In this document: piece after piece, positions 2,977 to 13,025 of the stretch | Numbering within the stretch: position 1 is the first letter of the stretch | Layout of the letters: each line of letters opens with the position of its first letter | Virus record (IMG/VR): IMGVR_UViG_3300031629_000101 | Location: 1-21,140 of that record | Length of the DNA stretch: 21,140 nucleotides | Reading direction: 5' to 3' (one strand) | Source of the DNA: a virus | The notes under the pieces: model-generated | The model's input: the letters and a program-made list of their open reading frames with translations, nothing else | Told to the model about the DNA's origin: nothing | Database searches by the model: none | Program-made: the position numbers and the translations under genes

Positions 2977-3387
2977 TTATAATTTTTTAATCATTTCAAT
3001 TGAATAGGTACTCGCTTCCTCATAACCTATTTTTTTGTATACATTAATAAGAGGTTTATTCTTAATCAAAGCATATACATATTTTTTATCTAAACTTTTA
3101 GCTTCATCGGTTATTGTTTGGATCAATAAGCTTAAAGCTTTTTTTCTATTATCTCTGTCTTTATAACGCATATTAGATATGATCCAGTCACACCACACTG
3201 CCTTAGAATTAGTTGTATACATGAATCCTGCACAAATAGGAATATCTCCATCATATACTATGTAACCACCAGATCCATCATCGGGTAAAAAATCCCTCGA
3301 AGGAGCTGTCCATCTCCAATCATTCCACCATCCGACAAGAATATCATCGTAATCACTTGCTTTTAATCGAGATATATTTAATTTCAT
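2977..3387 (-). CDS. GNAT-like N-acetyltransferase, 136 residues
   Basis: The length and C-terminal pattern fit the GNAT fold: a helix-rich middle (about residues 80-95), a strand KYVYALIKNKP, then the family-typical ending PLINVYKKIGYEE (about 110-122). The middle also has a WCDWIISN segment. The N-terminal region has a striking WWNDWRW cluster (about 20-26) and FLPDDGSGGYIV (33-44). The usual acetyl-CoA pyrophosphate loop, Q/RxxGxG/A, is not clear; the equivalent segment reads RDNRKKALSLLI, so catalysis is uncertain. The gene sits between tail and ejection genes, with its own promoter-like element 6 bases before the ATG. Possible roles are modifying virion proteins or a host target; the sequence does not show which. 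GNAT-like fold is fairly likely; the substrate is unknown. Confidence 0.7.
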   Translation of the reverse strand: MKLNISRLKASDYDDILVGWWNDWRWTAPSRDFLPDDGSGGYIVYDGDIPICAGFMYTTNSKAVWCDWIISNMRYKDRDNRKKALSLLIQTITDEAKSLDKKYVYALIKNKPLINVYKKIGYEEASTYSIEMIKKL

Positions 3388-3393
3388 TTATTA

Positions 3394-3401
3394 CAAAGAT
3401 A
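3394..3401 (-). promoter_or_regulatory. Bacteroidota-type -7 element (TATCTTTG) before the acetyltransferase gene
   Basis: The minus strand reads TTTACTATCTTTGTAA across 3406-3391, which contains TAnnTTTG, the -7 consensus of the Bacteroidota primary sigma factor. The same 16 bases occur at 12258-12243. No TTG -33 element is seen at the usual distance. Only 6 bases separate the element from the ATG at 3387, so a transcript starting at the normal distance would have almost no leader. It is a sequence match only; activity is inferred. Confidence 0.55.
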
Positions 3402-3409
3402 GTAAATTT

Positions 3410-4234
3410 CTATGGATAACTTTTCATCACACTACTACCGACTGAGTACATCTCAACCGGACTTGTCGAATTGTTCTCCAATTTAAATTGTAAATAATAT
3501 CCTCTTGCTCCATGCGATTCCGCTTGGCTATTTTTAATGTACATTATATACTGGCCTACTGTTGGTAATGTATAGTCTCCAGTGGGTGTTCCATCTATTG
3601 TAATACTGTTAGAAGTTCTAGCTATAATAATACCAGCTGGCTCCGGATTAAGTGTTGCAGGAAGAGTAACAGCATATACCACATCTCCAATACTAAGAAT
3701 CGATCCTACAGGAACTGTAAAATCAATTACCCTACTCGCTGAGGTTCCACTTATATTACTACAAGCTCCTATTCCATTTGCAGAACGCATAGACCAGTTT
3801 ACTGTTCCAACATTTGTTCTAATGAAACTAAACCACTCTCCTTCTTTCTCTTCAAAATAAGTCTCTAACATAGACCCAGGACTACCATCAGTTAAATCGG
3901 TTAGTAGTTGAGTACAAGACCATCTTGCCTCAGTGGTATCTGCAACTGTTGTATTAGATTCGTAAGATAAAGTTTTAAATAGTTTTATACTTTCCGACGG
4001 CTCTGGATTAAAAGCACTTGTAATTGACGAAGCAGTATACGTATCATAATAAGTATTACGCTGTTCGTTGGTATTGTGTCTCCATAAATTACCTCCACTA
4101 AAACTGTAGAAATAACTATTCATTCCGATCATATAGTCAGGAAAAAAAGAGTAGAAAGAAGGCCATCCTCCTACACCTTGCTTCTCCAGTCTACCTGACG
4201 AATCTGTATTATACGATAATGTGTAATTTGGCAT
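3410..4234 (-). CDS. Accessory tail structural protein, 274 residues
   Basis: The N-terminal half has GGWPSFYSFFPDYM (about 22-35), then YSFSGGNLWRHN (43-54) and SESIKLFKTLSYES (80-93). This aromatic pattern is, from memory, one I associate with tail proteins of crAss-like and related marine phages, where it can lie inside the large stabilisation protein rather than in a separate gene. A second, beta-rich part (about 170-235: SIGDVVYAVT, SNSITIDG) resembles inserted modules elsewhere in this window. The C-terminus, GARGYYLQFKLENN to SSVMKSYP, looks like a compact terminal domain. It ends in TAG. It follows the 417-residue gene by 24 bases and probably belongs to the same transcript. Most likely it is part of the tail tip or a fibre anchor; a receptor-binding role is possible but unsupported. 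Confidence 0.65.
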   Translation of the reverse strand: MPNYTLSYNTDSSGRLEKQGVGGWPSFYSFFPDYMIGMNSYFYSFSGGNLWRHNTNEQRNTYYDTYTASSITSAFNPEPSESIKLFKTLSYESNTTVADTTEARWSCTQLLTDLTDGSPGSMLETYFEEKEGEWFSFIRTNVGTVNWSMRSANGIGACSNISGTSASRVIDFTVPVGSILSIGDVVYAVTLPATLNPEPAGIIIARTSNSITIDGTPTGDYTLPTVGQYIMYIKNSQAESHGARGYYLQFKLENNSTSPVEMYSVGSSVMKSYP

Positions 4235-4258
4235 TATTTTTCTATTTTAATATTAATA

Positions 4259-5512
4259 TTATGTTGCACAATGGACTGAATCTCCACATGCATATGATTG
4301 ATCACTAAACAAAGTAGCGTCTGCCGTACCTCCTGGATTTATAGTTGTTACTGTACCACAATAAACTGCTCCTGTCCCTGGTGTTCCTGTTTGATACTGA
4401 ACAACATCTCCTATAGAGAAACTATGAATATTCTCTACCGTATAGTTTAATGCTGAGCTACAGTCATCAAGTATATAAGTTCCATTAGAACAATCCCCTG
4501 TTGATACAACAACGCCGTTTCGCACACCTATGTACGTTGTGTTGCTTATAATGTAGTATTGTATTGTAATGGTATCATTTAAATAAGTACTTCCGTTAGA
4601 GGTAGTAAATACCCAGTTACCCACCTCTGGTGTTGTATTAGTTGATACTGTAAAAGGAACTGTGGTTCCCGTTGCATTCTGTATAAAGTAATATGTAGTT
4701 GTAGCTACAGCACAACTTATTGTAGATTGCGCTGCCGAAGCAGTGAATGTTGGTAAATTAGTAGGACAAGCTATCTCCCAATAAAATGCTGTTCCACATA
4801 ACGGAGCATAAACTTTTAAGTTTACATTAGTAGGTGTTACAGATGATTTAGGAACAACTAAAGTAAATACTGGAGACGTTAATGTACTTGCATCAGAACT
4901 ATATCCTACCTGAGCATTAGCAACACTAATACTTTGATAAGTTCCTTGAGCAGTATAATTACTAGAGACTAATAAATAGTCTTCAGGTTGATCTCCTTGA
5001 ACACATCCAGCGCCTGGAACATTAGAATAACTTCCAACCAGACTAGAGTTTTGATTTCCAGCATAAGTTGGTAACCCTGTTCCTTGATTTGCAATACCAG
5101 CATAATCTACTGTTGTACCAGCTCCGTCTAACAATACCACTCCATCGTGGTTATTCTTAGCGGTCATTCGATTGTATACTATACTATCATAAGTAGCTAA
5201 AACCCCATCAGGGACACTACTTCCTAAGTAAAAATACAATACCACTGCTCCTGTTGAGTTGTTTAGATTAATATCAGCACTGAATATTCCGTTTTGATTT
5301 CCAATTGACTCAGATATTCCTGTGCCACACTCAACTGAACATGCTGTACATGCCTGTGCGTTTAATAACACACCACTTAATTGCCTTCTAACAACTTGCC
5401 CCTGGGAATAATATCCGTCTGGGGCTAGTGTTGATAAAGTTGCATCTGTGTATAAAGATGATGCCTGTGAAAAACTTGTTCCATCGAAACAATATGTTCC
5501 TATTGATGCCAT
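4259..5512 (-). CDS. Cysteine-rich beta tail-tip or fibre protein, 417 residues
   Basis: The protein is rich in Ser, Thr, Gly, Tyr and Cys and predicted mostly beta by eye, as phage fibre and tail-tip proteins are. Residues 1-62 form a unit (TYCFDGTSFSQASSLYTDA, then APDGYYS, then ACTACSVEC) resembling the end of the upstream 1601-residue protein. A C-terminal unit (about 350-417) has SFSIGDVVQYQTG and an AVYCGTVTT strand, and ends with three cysteines in ACGDSVHCAT. There is no signal peptide. The ATG at 5512 is 10 bases past the TAA of the big tail gene, so it is likely co-expressed and mounted on it. A host-contact role is a reasonable inference from position and composition; no enzyme motif is visible. 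Confidence 0.6.
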   Translation of the reverse strand: MASIGTYCFDGTSFSQASSLYTDATLSTLAPDGYYSQGQVVRRQLSGVLLNAQACTACSVECGTGISESIGNQNGIFSADINLNNSTGAVVLYFYLGSSVPDGVLATYDSIVYNRMTAKNNHDGVVLLDGAGTTVDYAGIANQGTGLPTYAGNQNSSLVGSYSNVPGAGCVQGDQPEDYLLVSSNYTAQGTYQSISVANAQVGYSSDASTLTSPVFTLVVPKSSVTPTNVNLKVYAPLCGTAFYWEIACPTNLPTFTASAAQSTISCAVATTTYYFIQNATGTTVPFTVSTNTTPEVGNWVFTTSNGSTYLNDTITIQYYIISNTTYIGVRNGVVVSTGDCSNGTYILDDCSSALNYTVENIHSFSIGDVVQYQTGTPGTGAVYCGTVTTINPGGTADATLFSDQSYACGDSVHCAT

Positions 5513-5522
5513 AATATTATAT

Positions 5523-8500
5523 TTAAGTACAAATTACTAATTGTGTTACTATTCCGCTACTTCCAATTCGGATATACTTACTTGTTTCTGATCTGTAATA
5601 TCCTGAAGGTAATGGAACCGCTTGGCTACTAATACATATAGAAGAAGAGTAAACAAAATCTCCAACCGCTGGATAAGTCCCTGCTCCTGTATGGTAATAA
5701 GTATTAACCAATGGTTGATTACAAATTACAGACGCATCTTGCTGAACGCCACTACAACTAAAAGACACACAAGGCACACTACAGTCACAACATGCTGAAG
5801 ACGATAAAGTCGCATCATAACAAAATGACTGACAAGATGTAGTCCTATAATCATATATCAAATACAAATATTGATTTGCACTTGGTAAAGACAGAGCTGT
5901 TATTTCTGCTTGGTATAATCCTGCTGATGGATTTGTTACACTTCCATTTGCAATTGTTGTTGATGCCGCTAGTAATGAAGCTATATCTGTTTGATTATTA
6001 GCATATAATGTATTACTTGATAAATACTTAAAGTTATCCAATGGATAAGCCCAGTCATAGTCATCAAAATTTATTTTATTAGACCTCATTGTTAAATCCA
6101 CTCCACTCAAAGGAAACACTCCTAGAGATCTAACTCCAACTTGAGAGTCATAAGTAGATGCAACTAAATGAGAATTTCCAAACTCACATAAATCACTATC
6201 TACAGGGCTTATATTTGTTGAGTCTTCCCAGAAATATTCTGCATGAATATATTTGTTTGCATTCGTTTCTGAATTTATAACAACCTTTACAATAGTAATT
6301 GTCTCTTGAGTAGGACAGTTATAATTCATAATAAAACTTGAGGCTCCTCCAATCGCTGTAACAGTTACTACTGCGTTAGTTGGGGTGTTCAGTGTTTTAG
6401 ACCATGTGTAACTTCCAGTACCAGTTAAGGTTCCGCTGGTTACAGAAACTCCATTCCAAACAACATTAATCGTAATTGATCCAGAGCTTATATTATATCC
6501 TACAGGAACATCTCCTATTACGTTTCCATAATCTACTGTTGAAACAAAAGTTGCTCCACTTGCTAAATTATTTTTACTCACCTGTGAACCACAAGGAGTA
6601 ATTTGAGCTGGAATAGGAACAGGTATCTGATTCATTGCTAATACATATTCATCCATGTAAGGATCATAAGCCCCTAATTTCTGATTATTTAAATTACCAT
6701 AAAACTCATCTCTAAACCAAGATCTCATTCCAGATTCAGAAATAACAGTTAACTGATCACCTTGACCACCTCTACTTTGACCTGTTAATTTAAGTACCGC
6801 TCCTCTTTTTGAGTCAGTGAAATAAACATCATATCCATAAGAGATAAAACTCTCTGGATTAAAGCTAATTCCATACTCTTCAATACGAGCTATTTGAGTA
6901 CCTAAGATCTCCGGAACAGAGGTTACAACACCTCCACCTGTAGAGTCAGATAATAAATTTTTACTCAATAACACATAAGATATTCTATCTTCTTGTAAAA
7001 CAAGCACATCAGTTTTTCTTGAGTGTAATTTCTGAATAGGCCCGTAAGAAGTCTCTAAGTCTTTATAGTTTACCAATCCTAAATTAAATTCATTTAAGTT
7101 GTTCGTTCCTGAATTACTACTATAAACACCGCTATAAGTTAATCCTTCAAATCTATCCGCCTCTTTATAGTCTTGGTTAGAAACAGCTAGTGTACGTTCT
7201 CCTAATTGAAAACTCTTAGCTGCTAATTGATCTTTTATCTTATAGCTTTCTACTCCATTTCCAAAAGAATAAACATCTGCAAAATCTAAATTTACAACGG
7301 CATCTTGTGAAGCTGTTTGGTTTTGATCTCCAAGATCAGTATTTGACCCTGACAAATGGAATCCATTTGAGTCTATATCAAACATCTCACTTGAGTCGTA
7401 ATATAAATCTGGATTAGCATCTAAAGGCTCACTTTCAAAAACCATTAATGTGTTAGCTCTAAATATCACAAGATCAACTTCAATAGAAGCTTTTCTGTTG
7501 CTACCTAATCTCTCACATCCTTTTACACCACTGTTTACACCGAAGTATAAAGGAGAAGTTACGTCTCCTGGAACAGCCTGAGCAAACCCAATACCAATTC
7601 TCCAAACTCTACAAGGAACAGTCCCTGCATAGTTATATGGATTTCCACCTGGAACTGTTGGAGCATAGTACGAAGGATAGTAATCCCCTGAAGGATCTCC
7701 ATCATTCTCCATACCTGTTATATTTCCTGGACTAGCAGTTGCTACATTTATATTATCTCCATCATACCATGCTTTTAAGTCATTATAATCTGTACTTGCT
7801 ACATAGCTTTCTTCCCATAACCACTCTTTAGGATCACAGCCAAGTTTTACATTTGCTCTGTTTGCTCTAATATAAAGCTTAATAACAGATCCTCCAGGAA
7901 TACTATAATTAGTTGTTCCTGTTATTACACCAGCAGAATCATACTGAGTGGTGAAACATGGATATCCAATAGATCTATTTGTTGTACATCCAAAAGCACT
8001 ACTTGCGGTCTCTTGACTTCCTATTTCTATTATCGAATCATTAGGGATAGAAATGTTGAAATTTTGATTTTTAACATTCATATATAACCCTGCTAATTGG
8101 CTACTGTCTTCATCAAATCCCTGCTCTCCTGCAAGTCTTAAGAAATCAGATGACTCAGAAGTTATATCTAAAACGTTTACTTTTTCAACTCTTGTTAATG
8201 CACCACTAACATCTGCTTTCACTATTAATGTTTCTCCTTTAGCAACCTTATTAGCGTTGTCTCCTTCTAATTTAAAGAAGACCATATTATCACTTGGTCG
8301 AATATAGTAAAAGTTACTAAAAATAGTATTGTAAGTACCTAAACTTGGTTTAAGAACAAACTTATATTTCTTCGCCCAATAAGGAGCTGTACTCGTTATT
8401 TGAACCTGAACTGAATTTATATTAACTGAATCAGCTGGCTCTATGTATATGGTATTATATTCTGAAACCAAAACAGTAGATGCTCTACCGTAATCATCCA

Positions 8501-10328
8501 TGTATACTATACCAGTTTCATAATCTCTATTACTATGTAAGCTACTTGTATCATTGTCTTTTGAGAAAAATACTGTTCCTGAAATAAATCTAAAAAATTC
8601 AAAAATATTTGTAGTAACTGCACCCGTAATATTTTGATACTGCATAGCAATAACTTGCAGCTCAAAAGTGTTTGATCCTGGAGATACTCCAGTTAAAGCA
8701 AATCCCTGTTGCGAGGTTGCGTCTGTAATACTACTATTGAATTTAGTAAAAACACAAGACAGAGCAGGTGTTACTAAAAAATTATTAAATAAATCTGTTA
8801 AAGAAGACCCAGTATCTGCTGTAGCCAATGGCATAAACCTAGCATCAGCTAATGTTCCTGTTCCTATAGCCTCCTCAAATAAAGTAGAGGTTAAGAAATC
8901 GTACACAGAAGAGTAATTTGCGTCTAAGGTTATGGAAATACTCAGTGAAAATGTATCATTTTCAAAATTCTCATTAGCTATATAGCAAGCTGTTGATGTT
9001 GTACCTGTTATTTTTGAAGTTTCAAAAGCAAAACCAAGGGATAACACTGCTCCTTGCACTAATTTATCTGCAATATCAGTAAAATCAAATGTTATCTTAG
9101 AATTAGATATCGCCTCTGAGGTTCCGGAAAGGGTATATGAAATACCATCCCCCGGCAAGCCATCTGGTGCTGCAATAAAATCAAGAGGAATAGAGTTATA
9201 GCTAGTTGCATAGTCTAAAGAAATATTCGACCCTGTAGAGTTCGTTCTCTTAAAGTTATATCCATCTATGAAATTCCCGTAAATCAATCTATTGCTCATG
9301 ATTGTTTGAGCTTTTGCTACACGAGGTACATTATCATATTGGCGTAACAACTCATCACCACCTATTGTAGTGTAAATTTTACTATTAGTAAAAGAATAAC
9401 TTTTAGTGGTATTATCAGCCCATCCGTAATCCTCTTTTTTAAATCGTTCTATAACGAAAATAGTATTAGACGTAGAGTCTTTGTATAGTAAGTCTATCTC
9501 ACTAACTAAGCTACTCCCTGTACTAAATCCTACAATCGCTCCATTATAGCGATTAATCATTCCTGTATTTAAATAATTCCTTGTGTCAAAACTAAATTTA
9601 TCTGCCGAAAAAGCAGGTTTTGTAAATAAAGAAGTAGCACTATATTGATTATCTAAATATCTATATCTATAAGCAAAAGAGATAAATCTCTCTTTAATAT
9701 AATTCTCATTTCCTGGTAGTGTTACCATTTGTACCGTAGGAACTGTTAAAGGAATATGAGTCCCAACAGTGTCTTCAAAACCAGGTGGCTTTACAATAAC
9801 ACTTATAGCCTCTTCATTTATCTGATCTACATTTGCTATAGGATCTGCATAATTTCTACTAACATTTATTACCCTAGGCGGGTTTAAATCATCCGTAAAG
9901 AATAACAACGATCCGTCCACAAGATCTACACCAGTAATTAGGTACTTATCGTTAAAGTTTAAAACTGATGTTGAAATTACATGATACTGAAGAATCTGAT
10001 CTGAAGTATTAAAAGAGATTATTAAATCTACCTTTCCTCCAGGAGCAACTGTATTTGCTGAATCATGTACGAACCAGTAAATAGTCTCCCTCATTCCGTC
10101 TTCATACGCTCCAATACATTTTGTAGCTGGTGATAGCGGACTTCCTCCGTATTCTAAGGTCGTTAAACGATCATTCCCTTTAGAGTTCTCAACAGCGCCT
10201 ATTTCTGTAGACTCTGTAGCCCCTAACCTAATATTTAAAGCATCAATGTATTCACCAGGAGGAAGAAGTCTTTCATCCACCGATTTATTCATTCTACCTA
10301 AAATAAAATTTGTTGTAACTATTGGCAT
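5523..10328 (-). CDS. Large tail muzzle / stabilisation protein (T7 gp12-like N-terminus), 1601 residues
   Basis: The first 60 residues hold the signature start of tail-stabilisation or tail-tubular B-type proteins: FILGRMNKSVDERLLPPGEY, then a DALNIRLG strand and GAVENSKGN. Downstream there are repeated blade-like beta segments, for example VYFTDSKRGAVLKLTG, followed by GMRSWFRDEFYGN at about 1200-1215 and YDPYMDEYVLAMN. An Ig-like Thr/Val/Gly-rich segment lies around 1270-1340. The last 104 residues (DNA 5526-5837) are cysteine-rich, with ten Cys. In crAss-like virions the corresponding protein forms the tail muzzle below the ring proteins. The gene is by far the largest here and is intact. 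Its ATG lies 1 base past the stop of the 307-residue gene, so the two are likely translationally coupled. The family assignment is strong at the N-terminus and weaker in the middle. Confidence 0.85.
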   Translation of the reverse strand: MPIVTTNFILGRMNKSVDERLLPPGEYIDALNIRLGATESTEIGAVENSKGNDRLTTLEYGGSPLSPATKCIGAYEDGMRETIYWFVHDSANTVAPGGKVDLIISFNTSDQILQYHVISTSVLNFNDKYLITGVDLVDGSLLFFTDDLNPPRVINVSRNYADPIANVDQINEEAISVIVKPPGFEDTVGTHIPLTVPTVQMVTLPGNENYIKERFISFAYRYRYLDNQYSATSLFTKPAFSADKFSFDTRNYLNTGMINRYNGAIVGFSTGSSLVSEIDLLYKDSTSNTIFVIERFKKEDYGWADNTTKSYSFTNSKIYTTIGGDELLRQYDNVPRVAKAQTIMSNRLIYGNFIDGYNFKRTNSTGSNISLDYATSYNSIPLDFIAAPDGLPGDGISYTLSGTSEAISNSKITFDFTDIADKLVQGAVLSLGFAFETSKITGTTSTACYIANENFENDTFSLSISITLDANYSSVYDFLTSTLFEEAIGTGTLADARFMPLATADTGSSLTDLFNNFLVTPALSCVFTKFNSSITDATSQQGFALTGVSPGSNTFELQVIAMQYQNITGAVTTNIFEFFRFISGTVFFSKDNDTSSLHSNRDYETGIVYMDDYGRASTVLVSEYNTIYIEPADSVNINSVQVQITSTAPYWAKKYKFVLKPSLGTYNTIFSNFYYIRPSDNMVFFKLEGDNANKVAKGETLIVKADVSGALTRVEKVNVLDITSESSDFLRLAGEQGFDEDSSQLAGLYMNVKNQNFNISIPNDSIIEIGSQETASSAFGCTTNRSIGYPCFTTQYDSAGVITGTTNYSIPGGSVIKLYIRANRANVKLGCDPKEWLWEESYVASTDYNDLKAWYDGDNINVATASPGNITGMENDGDPSGDYYPSYYAPTVPGGNPYNYAGTVPCRVWRIGIGFAQAVPGDVTSPLYFGVNSGVKGCERLGSNRKASIEVDLVIFRANTLMVFESEPLDANPDLYYDSSEMFDIDSNGFHLSGSNTDLGDQNQTASQDAVVNLDFADVYSFGNGVESYKIKDQLAAKSFQLGERTLAVSNQDYKEADRFEGLTYSGVYSSNSGTNNLNEFNLGLVNYKDLETSYGPIQKLHSRKTDVLVLQEDRISYVLLSKNLLSDSTGGGVVTSVPEILGTQIARIEEYGISFNPESFISYGYDVYFTDSKRGAVLKLTGQSRGGQGDQLTVISESGMRSWFRDEFYGNLNNQKLGAYDPYMDEYVLAMNQIPVPIPAQITPCGSQVSKNNLASGATFVSTVDYGNVIGDVPVGYNISSGSITINVVWNGVSVTSGTLTGTGSYTWSKTLNTPTNAVVTVTAIGGASSFIMNYNCPTQETITIVKVVINSETNANKYIHAEYFWEDSTNISPVDSDLCEFGNSHLVASTYDSQVGVRSLGVFPLSGVDLTMRSNKINFDDYDWAYPLDNFKYLSSNTLYANNQTDIASLLAASTTIANGSVTNPSAGLYQAEITALSLPSANQYLYLIYDYRTTSCQSFCYDATLSSSACCDCSVPCVSFSCSGVQQDASVICNQPLVNTYYHTGAGTYPAVGDFVYSSSICISSQAVPLPSGYYRSETSKYIRIGSSGIVTQLVICT

Positions 10329-10329
10329 A

Positions 10330-11253
10330 TTATTTTATCCATTTATTCTGACCTCTCATGTTCATCAAGAGTCTGCCAGGGTGTATATTACTTAACCTTA
10401 TTTTTGCGTTTCTTAACAAAGAAGACTTATCTTTTCTTGCTCTATTAACAACGTATTCTGTTATACCAACTCTAGTATTTAAAATAGAGTATTTTACATA
10501 AGCATAAATGTACTCTTCAAAAAGTTTATTAAGATGAACTTCTGAATCGATACCACCAGCCATTCCGTCTGACACATATTCTAAAACCACTGAAGAAGAT
10601 CCTAGTATATTACTAAAATTTATTACACCAGATTGTTTATTGATTGTGAAGGTAGGGTTTGAGTTTGCAGTTTCTGTGTTCAACCCAAAACGAGCGCCTA
10701 CAGCATAATCAAAATACCAGTTACCATCTACACACCAGCCTTCAGAATTATTGTAAGGACTGCTTGAGTTTAGATAGATACTTTTAGCTGTTGCGGACAT
10801 CTGATTTAAATCTAATTCAGAGTCTTGTGGTCTTAATGCTTTTCCGTCTTGATCAAATAACACGTTAGAGTCATTGTCTTGCAGGTAAGCTGCGGACCAG
10901 TTGGTTTGTATGTTTTCTGATAAAGGATATAATGTACCATCTCTAAACTGAGAGATACGAACCCAATTCACATAGTCTGGAGGTAAAACAAAACGCAATT
11001 GATTAGTGATGTCTAATTGAAGAATTTTAATCTCCTTCATAGCATCGTAATTCAACTCCTGTATACCTCTTTTTGCATGGAATAATATCTGGTATCGTTC
11101 TATATTGTTAATCAGATCATGGTTTCCCTGATACATTAACATAAAATTGTTAACTATATCCGCCAAAGAAAGAAATTGATATGATCCCCAATTCGCATCA
11201 GTTGGTGTAGTCCCTGAGTTTTGATAATATTCGTAATCTGTTTTATAAGCCAT
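10330..11253 (-). CDS. Tail-tubular / head-tail adaptor-like protein, 307 residues
   Basis: The product has a helical N-terminal region, LADIVNNFMLMYQGN (about 31-45) then INNIERYQILFHAKRGIQEL (49-68). This is followed by ILQLDITNQLRFVLPPDYVNWVRIS (split around residues 76-100), where LPPDYVNWVRI marks the strand after the helices. That helix-then-LPPDY arrangement is typical of podovirus neck proteins of the tail-tubular A / P22 gp4 kind, which join portal to tail. The C-terminal part is again helical and basic (NRARKDKSSLLRNAKIRLS). It starts 11 bases after the 321-residue gene and ends 1 base before the muzzle gene, the expected place for a ring protein under the portal. The ring role is inference; membership of the virion neck is likely. 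Confidence 0.72.
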   Translation of the reverse strand: MAYKTDYEYYQNSGTTPTDANWGSYQFLSLADIVNNFMLMYQGNHDLINNIERYQILFHAKRGIQELNYDAMKEIKILQLDITNQLRFVLPPDYVNWVRISQFRDGTLYPLSENIQTNWSAAYLQDNDSNVLFDQDGKALRPQDSELDLNQMSATAKSIYLNSSSPYNNSEGWCVDGNWYFDYAVGARFGLNTETANSNPTFTINKQSGVINFSNILGSSSVVLEYVSDGMAGGIDSEVHLNKLFEEYIYAYVKYSILNTRVGITEYVVNRARKDKSSLLRNAKIRLSNIHPGRLLMNMRGQNKWIK

Positions 11254-11264
11254 AATAAATATTG

Positions 11265-12230
11265 TTATTGGTTATCTTCTGCTATTGCTGCTTTTCCGAA
11301 ATCATATACGGCCTGTTCTCTTATTTCTACTCCTATGTATTGACAGATTTTAGCAATTAAAATTGGCTCATCTGATAATGGTAATTCAAAATCCTGATAA
11401 TCAGCTTGAGTCGCATCAAATAAAGGTTCTCCTCCAAGTAATTGAGCGTATGTCCAACGCGGTGGATTAGGATACCTAACATATTGTGCGAAGATTGTCC
11501 CTGGAGTTGTTAGTGTTACAGGGTATACATTTACAGTATTCCCTAAAGAAGTATTATTTGCACTTCCTAGCACGTAAGCAGGATATCCTGTAGATGGAGA
11601 AGTAAGGGGAGAAGAATTTAAATAAAAGATCTTATTCTGATTCACTCTTTCTACCTCAACTATACCAACGCTAGATACTATAGTGTATGTATTCCCTATT
11701 GTTCCAGCTACACCAAATATATCGTCACTCAGAGTTAACTCTGTATTACTTACAATAGCTATTACATAAGCACTTTGGCCCGCTGTAAGGCTACCAGAAG
11801 TTACCGATGACACTAACTGTCCTAAAATAGCTGTATTGCTCGTAAACGTTGCCGCAGCGTCTGTCAGAGTATTTGTCCCTGCCGCTGTGGTTGTTCCAGA
11901 TAGAATTACCGTTGGGTAATAATTAATTTTATTTATTAAATAGTAATTGCTTGGTAATGAGAATAAGTTAACCCCATTATTTATCAAGGTTTGTGTAGCA
12001 GAAAAACTATCAATTACTTCCACTAAACCTTTTGCTATATCTGCATATCCAGAACCTGATTGTCTTAGATTTTCTTTTATTAATTGATTATTATATTGAT
12101 AAAAATAATCCTCAAACATATCCATTTGAGCTTGCTTTGCATATAGATTAAAATCAGCGGGAGATATATATCCGTAGTTGTTTTTATTAGCTATAGCCAA
12201 CACTGTATTTCTTACGTCGTTAATAGGCAT
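11265..12230 (-). CDS. Neck ring/adaptor-like protein with an inserted beta module, 321 residues
   Basis: The N-terminus, NNYGYISPADFNLYAKQAQM (17-36) then FEDYFYQYN, is a helical pattern I associate with neck proteins of Bacteroidota podophages. A core beta part contains SLPSNYYLINKINY (91-104). Between about 110 and 186 (DNA 11673-11903) lies a Thr/Ser/Ala-rich beta stretch with ILGQLVSSVT and IVSNTELTLSDD that looks like an inserted decoration module. The core resumes with VEVERVNQNKIFYLNSSP. It is the first gene after a terminator and a promoter-like element (leader about 15 bases), so it begins the neck-tail transcript. Its exact place in the neck cannot be read from sequence. Confidence 0.68.
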   Translation of the reverse strand: MPINDVRNTVLAIANKNNYGYISPADFNLYAKQAQMDMFEDYFYQYNNQLIKENLRQSGSGYADIAKGLVEVIDSFSATQTLINNGVNLFSLPSNYYLINKINYYPTVILSGTTTAAGTNTLTDAAATFTSNTAILGQLVSSVTSGSLTAGQSAYVIAIVSNTELTLSDDIFGVAGTIGNTYTIVSSVGIVEVERVNQNKIFYLNSSPLTSPSTGYPAYVLGSANNTSLGNTVNVYPVTLTTPGTIFAQYVRYPNPPRWTYAQLLGGEPLFDATQADYQDFELPLSDEPILIAKICQYIGVEIREQAVYDFGKAAIAEDNQ

Positions 12231-12242
12231 AATTTATTCTTT

Positions 12243-12258
12243 TTACAAAGATAGTAAA
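12243..12258 (-). promoter_or_regulatory. Bacteroidota-type promoter element opening the neck/tail block
   Basis: The minus strand reads TTTACTATCTTTGTAA, containing the -7 consensus TAnnTTTG (12253-12246). The ATG of the 321-residue gene is 15 bases further on. An identical 16-mer lies at 3391-3406. The 5' end of this element overlaps the T-run of the preceding terminator, so the upstream transcript ends where a new one would begin. TTAC and GTAA flank the core as a short inverted repeat with 7 bases between. No -33 TTG is seen at the normal distance. Confidence 0.65.
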
Positions 12259-12292
12259 AAAAAAGAGGCTTACTTTTTTTGTAAACCTCCTC
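12256..12292 (-). terminator. Rho-independent terminator after the two small paralogous genes
   Basis: On the minus strand an ~11-base-pair stem (AGGAGGTTTAC paired with GTAAGCCTCTT, with two G-U pairs) encloses a loop of seven A residues. It runs straight into nine T residues (12264-12256). It lies about 23 bases past the TAG of the 94-residue gene and immediately before a promoter-like element. The AGGAGG in the stem resembles a Shine-Dalgarno sequence, but no start codon follows at a suitable distance. Confidence 0.85.
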
Positions 12293-12315
12293 TTATAAAT
12301 TATTCTTAAAACGTT

Positions 12316-12962: not shown

Positions 12963-12970
12963 CAAATATA
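12963..12970 (-). promoter_or_regulatory. Bacteroidota-type -7 element (TATATTTG) for the small-gene cassette
   Basis: The minus strand reads TATATTTG, a TAnnTTTG match, one base after the T-run of the terminator at 12972-12999 and 53 bases before the first ATG of the cassette. No clear -33 TTG is seen. Its position, directly behind a terminator and ahead of a gene pair with its own terminator, is the main support beyond the motif. Confidence 0.55.
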
Positions 12971-12971
12971 C

Positions 12972-12999
12972 AAAAAAAAAGCCACCATTTTCAGGCAGC
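12972..12999 (-). terminator. Rho-independent terminator after the 254-residue gene
   Basis: On the minus strand GCTGCC, loop TGAAAAT, GGTGGC forms a 6-pair stem with two G-U pairs, followed by nine T residues (12980-12972). It lies about 26 bases past the TAA of the 254-residue gene. It is the weakest of the three terminators by stem length, so read-through is likely. Confidence 0.7.
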
Positions 13000-13025
13000 T
13001 CTTTTCTTAGTTAAGGGAAATATAA

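Follow-up and report, generated by a model that had tools for sequence, protein, structure and literature searches.

The window, that is the whole stretch of DNA analysed here, is a virus record of 21,140 bases from a podovirus-like phage of Bacteroidota. The minus strand carries every gene of the window, and the early half lies outside the record. From right to left, the genes for a terminase (21066-19030, open-ended), a portal protein (19029-16594), a further product (16554-15373) and a major structural (capsid-type) protein (15357-13864) are followed by several smaller genes and then by a tail block that extends to the left end. The nearest annotated phages are MW202828 from Manatee Spring, the Maribacter phage Panino, the Flavobacterium elemo phages and the Cellulophaga phages of Pervagoviridae, and one window gene contains the crAss muzzle C-terminal domain PF25729.

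The exact 16-mer TTTACTATCTTTGTAA occurs without mismatch at two positions of the minus strand, 3406-3391 and 12258-12243, and nowhere else in the record. Intergenic DNA makes up 3% of the window; both copies fall into it and are oriented toward a gene, the first ending 3 nt 5' of the ATG of gene 3387-2977 and the second 12 nt 5' of that of gene 12230-11265. Each encloses the octamer TATCTTTG (3401-3394 and 12253-12246, minus strand), a form of TAnnTTTG, and each lacks a -33 TTG, so that the description of the two sites given in the earlier note was accurate. A repeated 16-mer was also present in 8 of 30 dinucleotide shuffles, the window holds one unrelated 16/17-mer repeat and one coding repeat besides, and the bare TANNTTTG was observed 25 times vs 26.4 expected. 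Taken alone, neither the 8-mer nor the two-copy repeat is significant, the latter being close to what chance gives in so AT-rich a window; what exceeds chance is the intergenic placement of both copies, their correct orientation and their conservation at both positions in relatives. A special identity between the two window sites was tested and rejected. With a shared consensus, exactly matching promoters within a genome are to be expected, and the relative G013 likewise has such a pair.

The copy at 12243-12258 (minus strand) forms the core of predicted promoter 1. If the 4-5 nt spacing of Flavobacterium johnsoniae applies, transcription would start at 12241 or 12240 on the minus strand and produce a leader of 10-11 nt. 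The gene served (11265-12230, minus strand) codes for a virion structural protein (PHROG 14543), its orthologues being so annotated in cultured phages. Immediately upstream, a terminator scan predicted an intrinsic terminator at 12260-12294 (minus strand) with a folding energy of -16 kcal/mol (z -5.9), whose T-run passes straight into promoter 1 and constitutes its AT-rich spacer.

This arrangement was followed in 80 relatives found with the capsid protein, from which 60 non-redundant cassettes, including the window, were drawn. The -7 element TAT[CA]TTTG was present upstream of the 12230-11265 orthologue in all 60, as TATCTTTG in 42 and TATATTTG in 18, and a stable hairpin and T-run accompanied the promoter in 58, the window among them. 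Altogether, TAT[CA]TTTG is conserved before this gene at about 65 loci, and nearly every relative has the same typical order of hairpin, T-run, TAT[CA]TTTG and A-rich leader. Since stems differing in length were misaligned by MAFFT, consensus folding of the aligned cassettes yielded no structure; each stem was therefore folded singly, and base-pair types were tallied outward from the T-run. Across the 58 sequences, stem positions 5-8 before the T-run each display three to six base-pair types, a pattern of covariation showing that the terminator hairpin persists through changes of its sequence. The terminator-promoter also precedes the orthologous gene in MW202828, elemoE, phi38:1 and Calle_1, and looser versions are found in Panino and Gundel; the carriers include cultured phages, Pervagoviridae among them. 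This fusion of terminator and promoter is the more interesting detail of the case.

A second terminator-promoter unit lies between the capsid and tail genes of the window. Here, a predicted intrinsic terminator (12971-13009, minus strand; -17.9 kcal/mol, z -6.75) stands directly 5' of a third -7 element, TATATTTG at 12963-12970 (minus strand), which marks predicted promoter 3 upstream of gene 12909-12613. This gene and its small paralogue 12600-12316 have a THAAD motif in common. In relatives such as G013 and G002, similar elements precede small genes that lie between the orthologues of 13026 and 11265. A hairpin at 12954-12936, behind promoter 3, is weak and not significant (z -0.54). A further terminator, 3' of the capsid gene (13850-13823, minus strand), has no -7 element in the window's clade; in MW202828 and elemoE, TATCTTTG directly follows the terminator behind the capsid gene.

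The other 16-mer copy (3391-3406, minus strand) corresponds to predicted promoter 2. Judged from spacing only, its transcript would start at 3389 or 3388 (minus strand), which predicts a nearly leaderless mRNA with a leader of 1-2 nt. The downstream gene (2977-3387, minus strand) encodes a small acetyltransferase-like protein (PHROG 17252, unknown function); its positional counterpart in MW202828 is annotated as N-terminal acetyltransferase, and the match of the product to a solved acetyltransferase is weak (E 0.14). Nine orthologues of this gene carry TATCTTTG, or TATATTTG in one case, a few bases 5' of the ATG, and none of the nine has a terminator at this position. In some relatives the element at this junction stands before a different gene. 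The matching junction of phi38:1 (L130, around 17545) has, in place of TATCTTTG, the sequence TATCTTGT, which resembles SM5 (TAnnTTGY), an alternative motif of F. psychrophilum.

Whether the element favours intergenic over coding DNA, the check recommended in the earlier note, was examined in 16 sequences: 13 IMG/VR contigs of 48-65 kb, most of MW202828, most of elemoE and the window. Coding regions of the relatives were set by a simple open-reading-frame rule, and many of the compared loci are metagenome fragments. The outcome favours a promoter, with TATCTTTG at 0.73/kb in intergenic vs 0.04/kb in coding DNA. Its 73 intergenic occurrences compare with 3.0 expected from shuffles (24-fold), and the reversed control gave 2 vs 3.3 expected. 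Among gene starts with an upstream gap of at least 20 nt, TAT[AC]TTTG was detected at 89 of 220 on the late strand, which holds the structural genes, and at 12 of 184 on the opposite (early) strand, which holds the replication genes (Fisher p = 2e-16). The early strand could be one long operon with few promoters, and this could be a partial cause of the bias. Alignment of 112 unique upstream sites placed most of them 4-40 nt 5' of the ATG and revealed a T/A-rich spacer (-11 to -3 before the -7 element), G or T before the TA and mostly T after TTTG. A -33 TTG is not enriched (11/112 vs 9/112 at the control position). Positions -34 to -31 tend weakly to be A-rich, and sites that belong to neither of the two conserved families share this tendency.

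These features closely resemble the promoters of flavobacteria. In F. johnsoniae, TAHHTTTG occupies positions -12 to -5, transcription starts 4-5 nt further on, AT-rich stretches lie near -18 and -28 and a -33 element is hardly evident (PMC6847099); the sigma-A motifs of F. psychrophilum are variants of TAnnTTTG (PMC9723704). Both window sites and all 60 orthologous positions have the -7 element TAnnTTTG (TAHHTTTG), and the AT-rich spacer near -18 is in place. The -33 TTTG/TTG, missing at the window sites, is not a required feature in F. johnsoniae, and its absence, once read as a hint of phage specificity, is no anomaly, a weak -33 being normal in flavobacterial promoters (PMC6847099). The element fits the flavobacterial housekeeping promoter. 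The exact 16-mer also occurs in the genomes of bacteria. Among the matches listed, at least 43 are in Bacteroidota (26 upstream of an ORF, 9 otherwise intergenic, 8 coding) and at least 38 outside this phylum (28 coding, 10 noncoding), which amounts to a noncoding share of 35/43 vs 10/38 among those listed (p = 6e-7). The 16-mer is also located behind a terminator-like hairpin in further phage contigs, which reach 145 kb (L252, L296). A scan for the sigma-70 motifs TTGACA/TATAAT, a model unsuited to Bacteroidota, returned matches at background level and was discarded. A literature search found no papers on promoters of these phages.

The two 16-mers are very probably the cores of late-gene promoters for the host housekeeping RNA polymerase holoenzyme (sigma-ABfr/sigma-A). 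The earlier note had instead proposed a phage-specific late promoter. Of this proposal, the promoter stands by virtue of conservation and intergenic enrichment, and the late assignment by virtue of the strand bias. Reading of an extended 16-base element by a sigma factor or polymerase of the phage itself would agree with the strong restriction to the late strand and with some conservation beyond the -7 core, namely the T after TTTG and the T-tract before it, and yet it is very unlikely: the identical 16-mer precedes Bacteroidota chromosomal genes, the flanks of the -7 element differ freely from phage to phage, and profile searches of 14 relatives, with working positive controls, detected neither sigma-70 region 2 or region 4 (PF04542, PF08281) nor a multisubunit RNA polymerase domain (PF00623). 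A search for T7-type polymerases lacked a positive control and is uninformative, and divergent polymerases may have escaped the profile searches. Recognition by the host polymerase is the simplest reading because the consensus fits, the 16-mer is found on chromosomes and no phage sigma or polymerase domain was detected. It can be refined, rather than opposed, by assuming that the sigma-A promoter is switched on late by a phage activator or by derepression. Such a switch would account for the late-strand bias together with the host-type -7, and the weak A-rich tendency of positions -34 to -31 might be one of its traces; since no second strongly conserved box beyond the -7 element and spacer was found in the aligned sites, it is put forward here as a tentative possibility.

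The inverted repeat TTAC/GTAA, in which the earlier note saw a possible operator, is present in both window copies and might be bound by a dimeric phage regulator. Among relatives, its left arm shows no conservation, its symmetry varies from phage to phage and the mean pairing is 1.51 of 4 vs 1.38 in shuffled sequences, with 15 of 1000 shuffles equally high, which makes an operator highly improbable. Even less credible is a functionless chance repeat: the shuffles that also contained a repeated 16-mer and the unenriched TANNTTTG of the window speak for it, but it is contradicted by conservation at both positions and by the genome-wide intergenic enrichment in relatives.

It is conceivable, if rather doubtful, that these phages keep host-type promoters all but exclusively for the late strand and have the early strand read otherwise, perhaps by an undetected phage polymerase or by a regulator at phage-specific palindromes, so that two transcription systems would share the genome. 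Two such palindromes were observed. The perfect 16-bp palindrome GTGTCGTTAACGACAC has 14 copies in MW202828.1 (L127, 31746-43155), all in the early/replication module and often 16-39 nt 5' of a start codon; an operator, a hairpin promoter or a replication repeat are possible functions. A different palindrome, CGTTTAAACG, is present in 21 copies in one IMG/VR contig (G008; L091-L094) and in 7 in another (G007; L087-L090); in either genome most copies lie within a single part, and coding and intergenic DNA alike contain them. An early-strand motif from a pooled search was dismissed, as it derived mostly from one phage. Two giant minus-strand proteins were noted in relatives as well, one of 3150 aa (L108, 8452-17904) without Pfam or PHROG match and one of 3859 aa (L380, 741-12320) without PHROG match; either could conceivably be a highly diverged virion polymerase.

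We infer from the sequence how host sigma recognition, start sites, termination, late timing and an effect on expression level may fit together. The -7 element TATCTTTG has a T/A-rich spacer ahead of it (about -20 to -15) and a T with an A-rich leader behind it, the -33 TTG being unused. Promoter 1 would start the structural-gene transcript, from 12230 leftwards, and the terminator at 12294-12260 would end transcripts arriving from the capsid genes, its T-run doubling as promoter spacer. The terminator at 13009-12971 and promoter 3 would serve the two small paralogous genes, and promoter 2 would be a further, internal start point of the block, from which the acetyltransferase-like gene is transcribed with hardly any leader. 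The late region would thereby be divided into separately started units, which would allow different expression levels for capsid and tail genes. A plain host promoter alone leaves the late timing unexplained, which may therefore involve a repressor, an activator or the gradual entry of DNA as well.

Such a scheme would yield a simple late-gene promoter map for aquatic phages of Bacteroidota, a large group that has received little study, together with a compact terminator-promoter unit between capsid and tail genes that is kept across the group. Should plain host promoters indeed drive the late genes, it becomes a direct question what holds these genes off early.

The case appears to be a well-supported new instance of a known promoter kind. 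Like the housekeeping promoters of Bacteroidota, the phage sites combine a -7 within TAHHTTTG, an AT-rich spacer around -18, a weak or absent -33 and a position near the start codon; unlike them, they strongly prefer TATC or TATA at the opening of the -7 (TAT[CA]TTTG). The 1-2 nt leader predicted for one site differs from a typical F. psychrophilum mRNA, leaderless mRNAs being uncommon in this species (5.5%) (PMC9723704). The hairpin with an A-rich loop followed by 8-10 T is that of an intrinsic (rho-independent) terminator, except that the T-run enters the promoter directly, usually 0-3 nt before the -7 element. For Crassvirales (phi14:2, crAss001), the host polymerase has been proposed to transcribe the late genes (review PMC10136315). 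Distantly related structural genes (PF25729) and host-type promoters at late genes, here deduced from sequence alone, are points of resemblance; on the other hand, the present phages are nearer to Pervagoviridae and Elemovirus, and no crAss-type RNA polymerase was detected in them. In phage T7, the polymerase is phage-encoded, and the leaky terminator T-phi after gene 10 separates the capsid from the tail genes in the late block. A terminator between the capsid and tail genes of the late block is common to both, by analogy and not by homology, and in the phages described here, unlike in T7, a host-type promoter would restart transcription at once.
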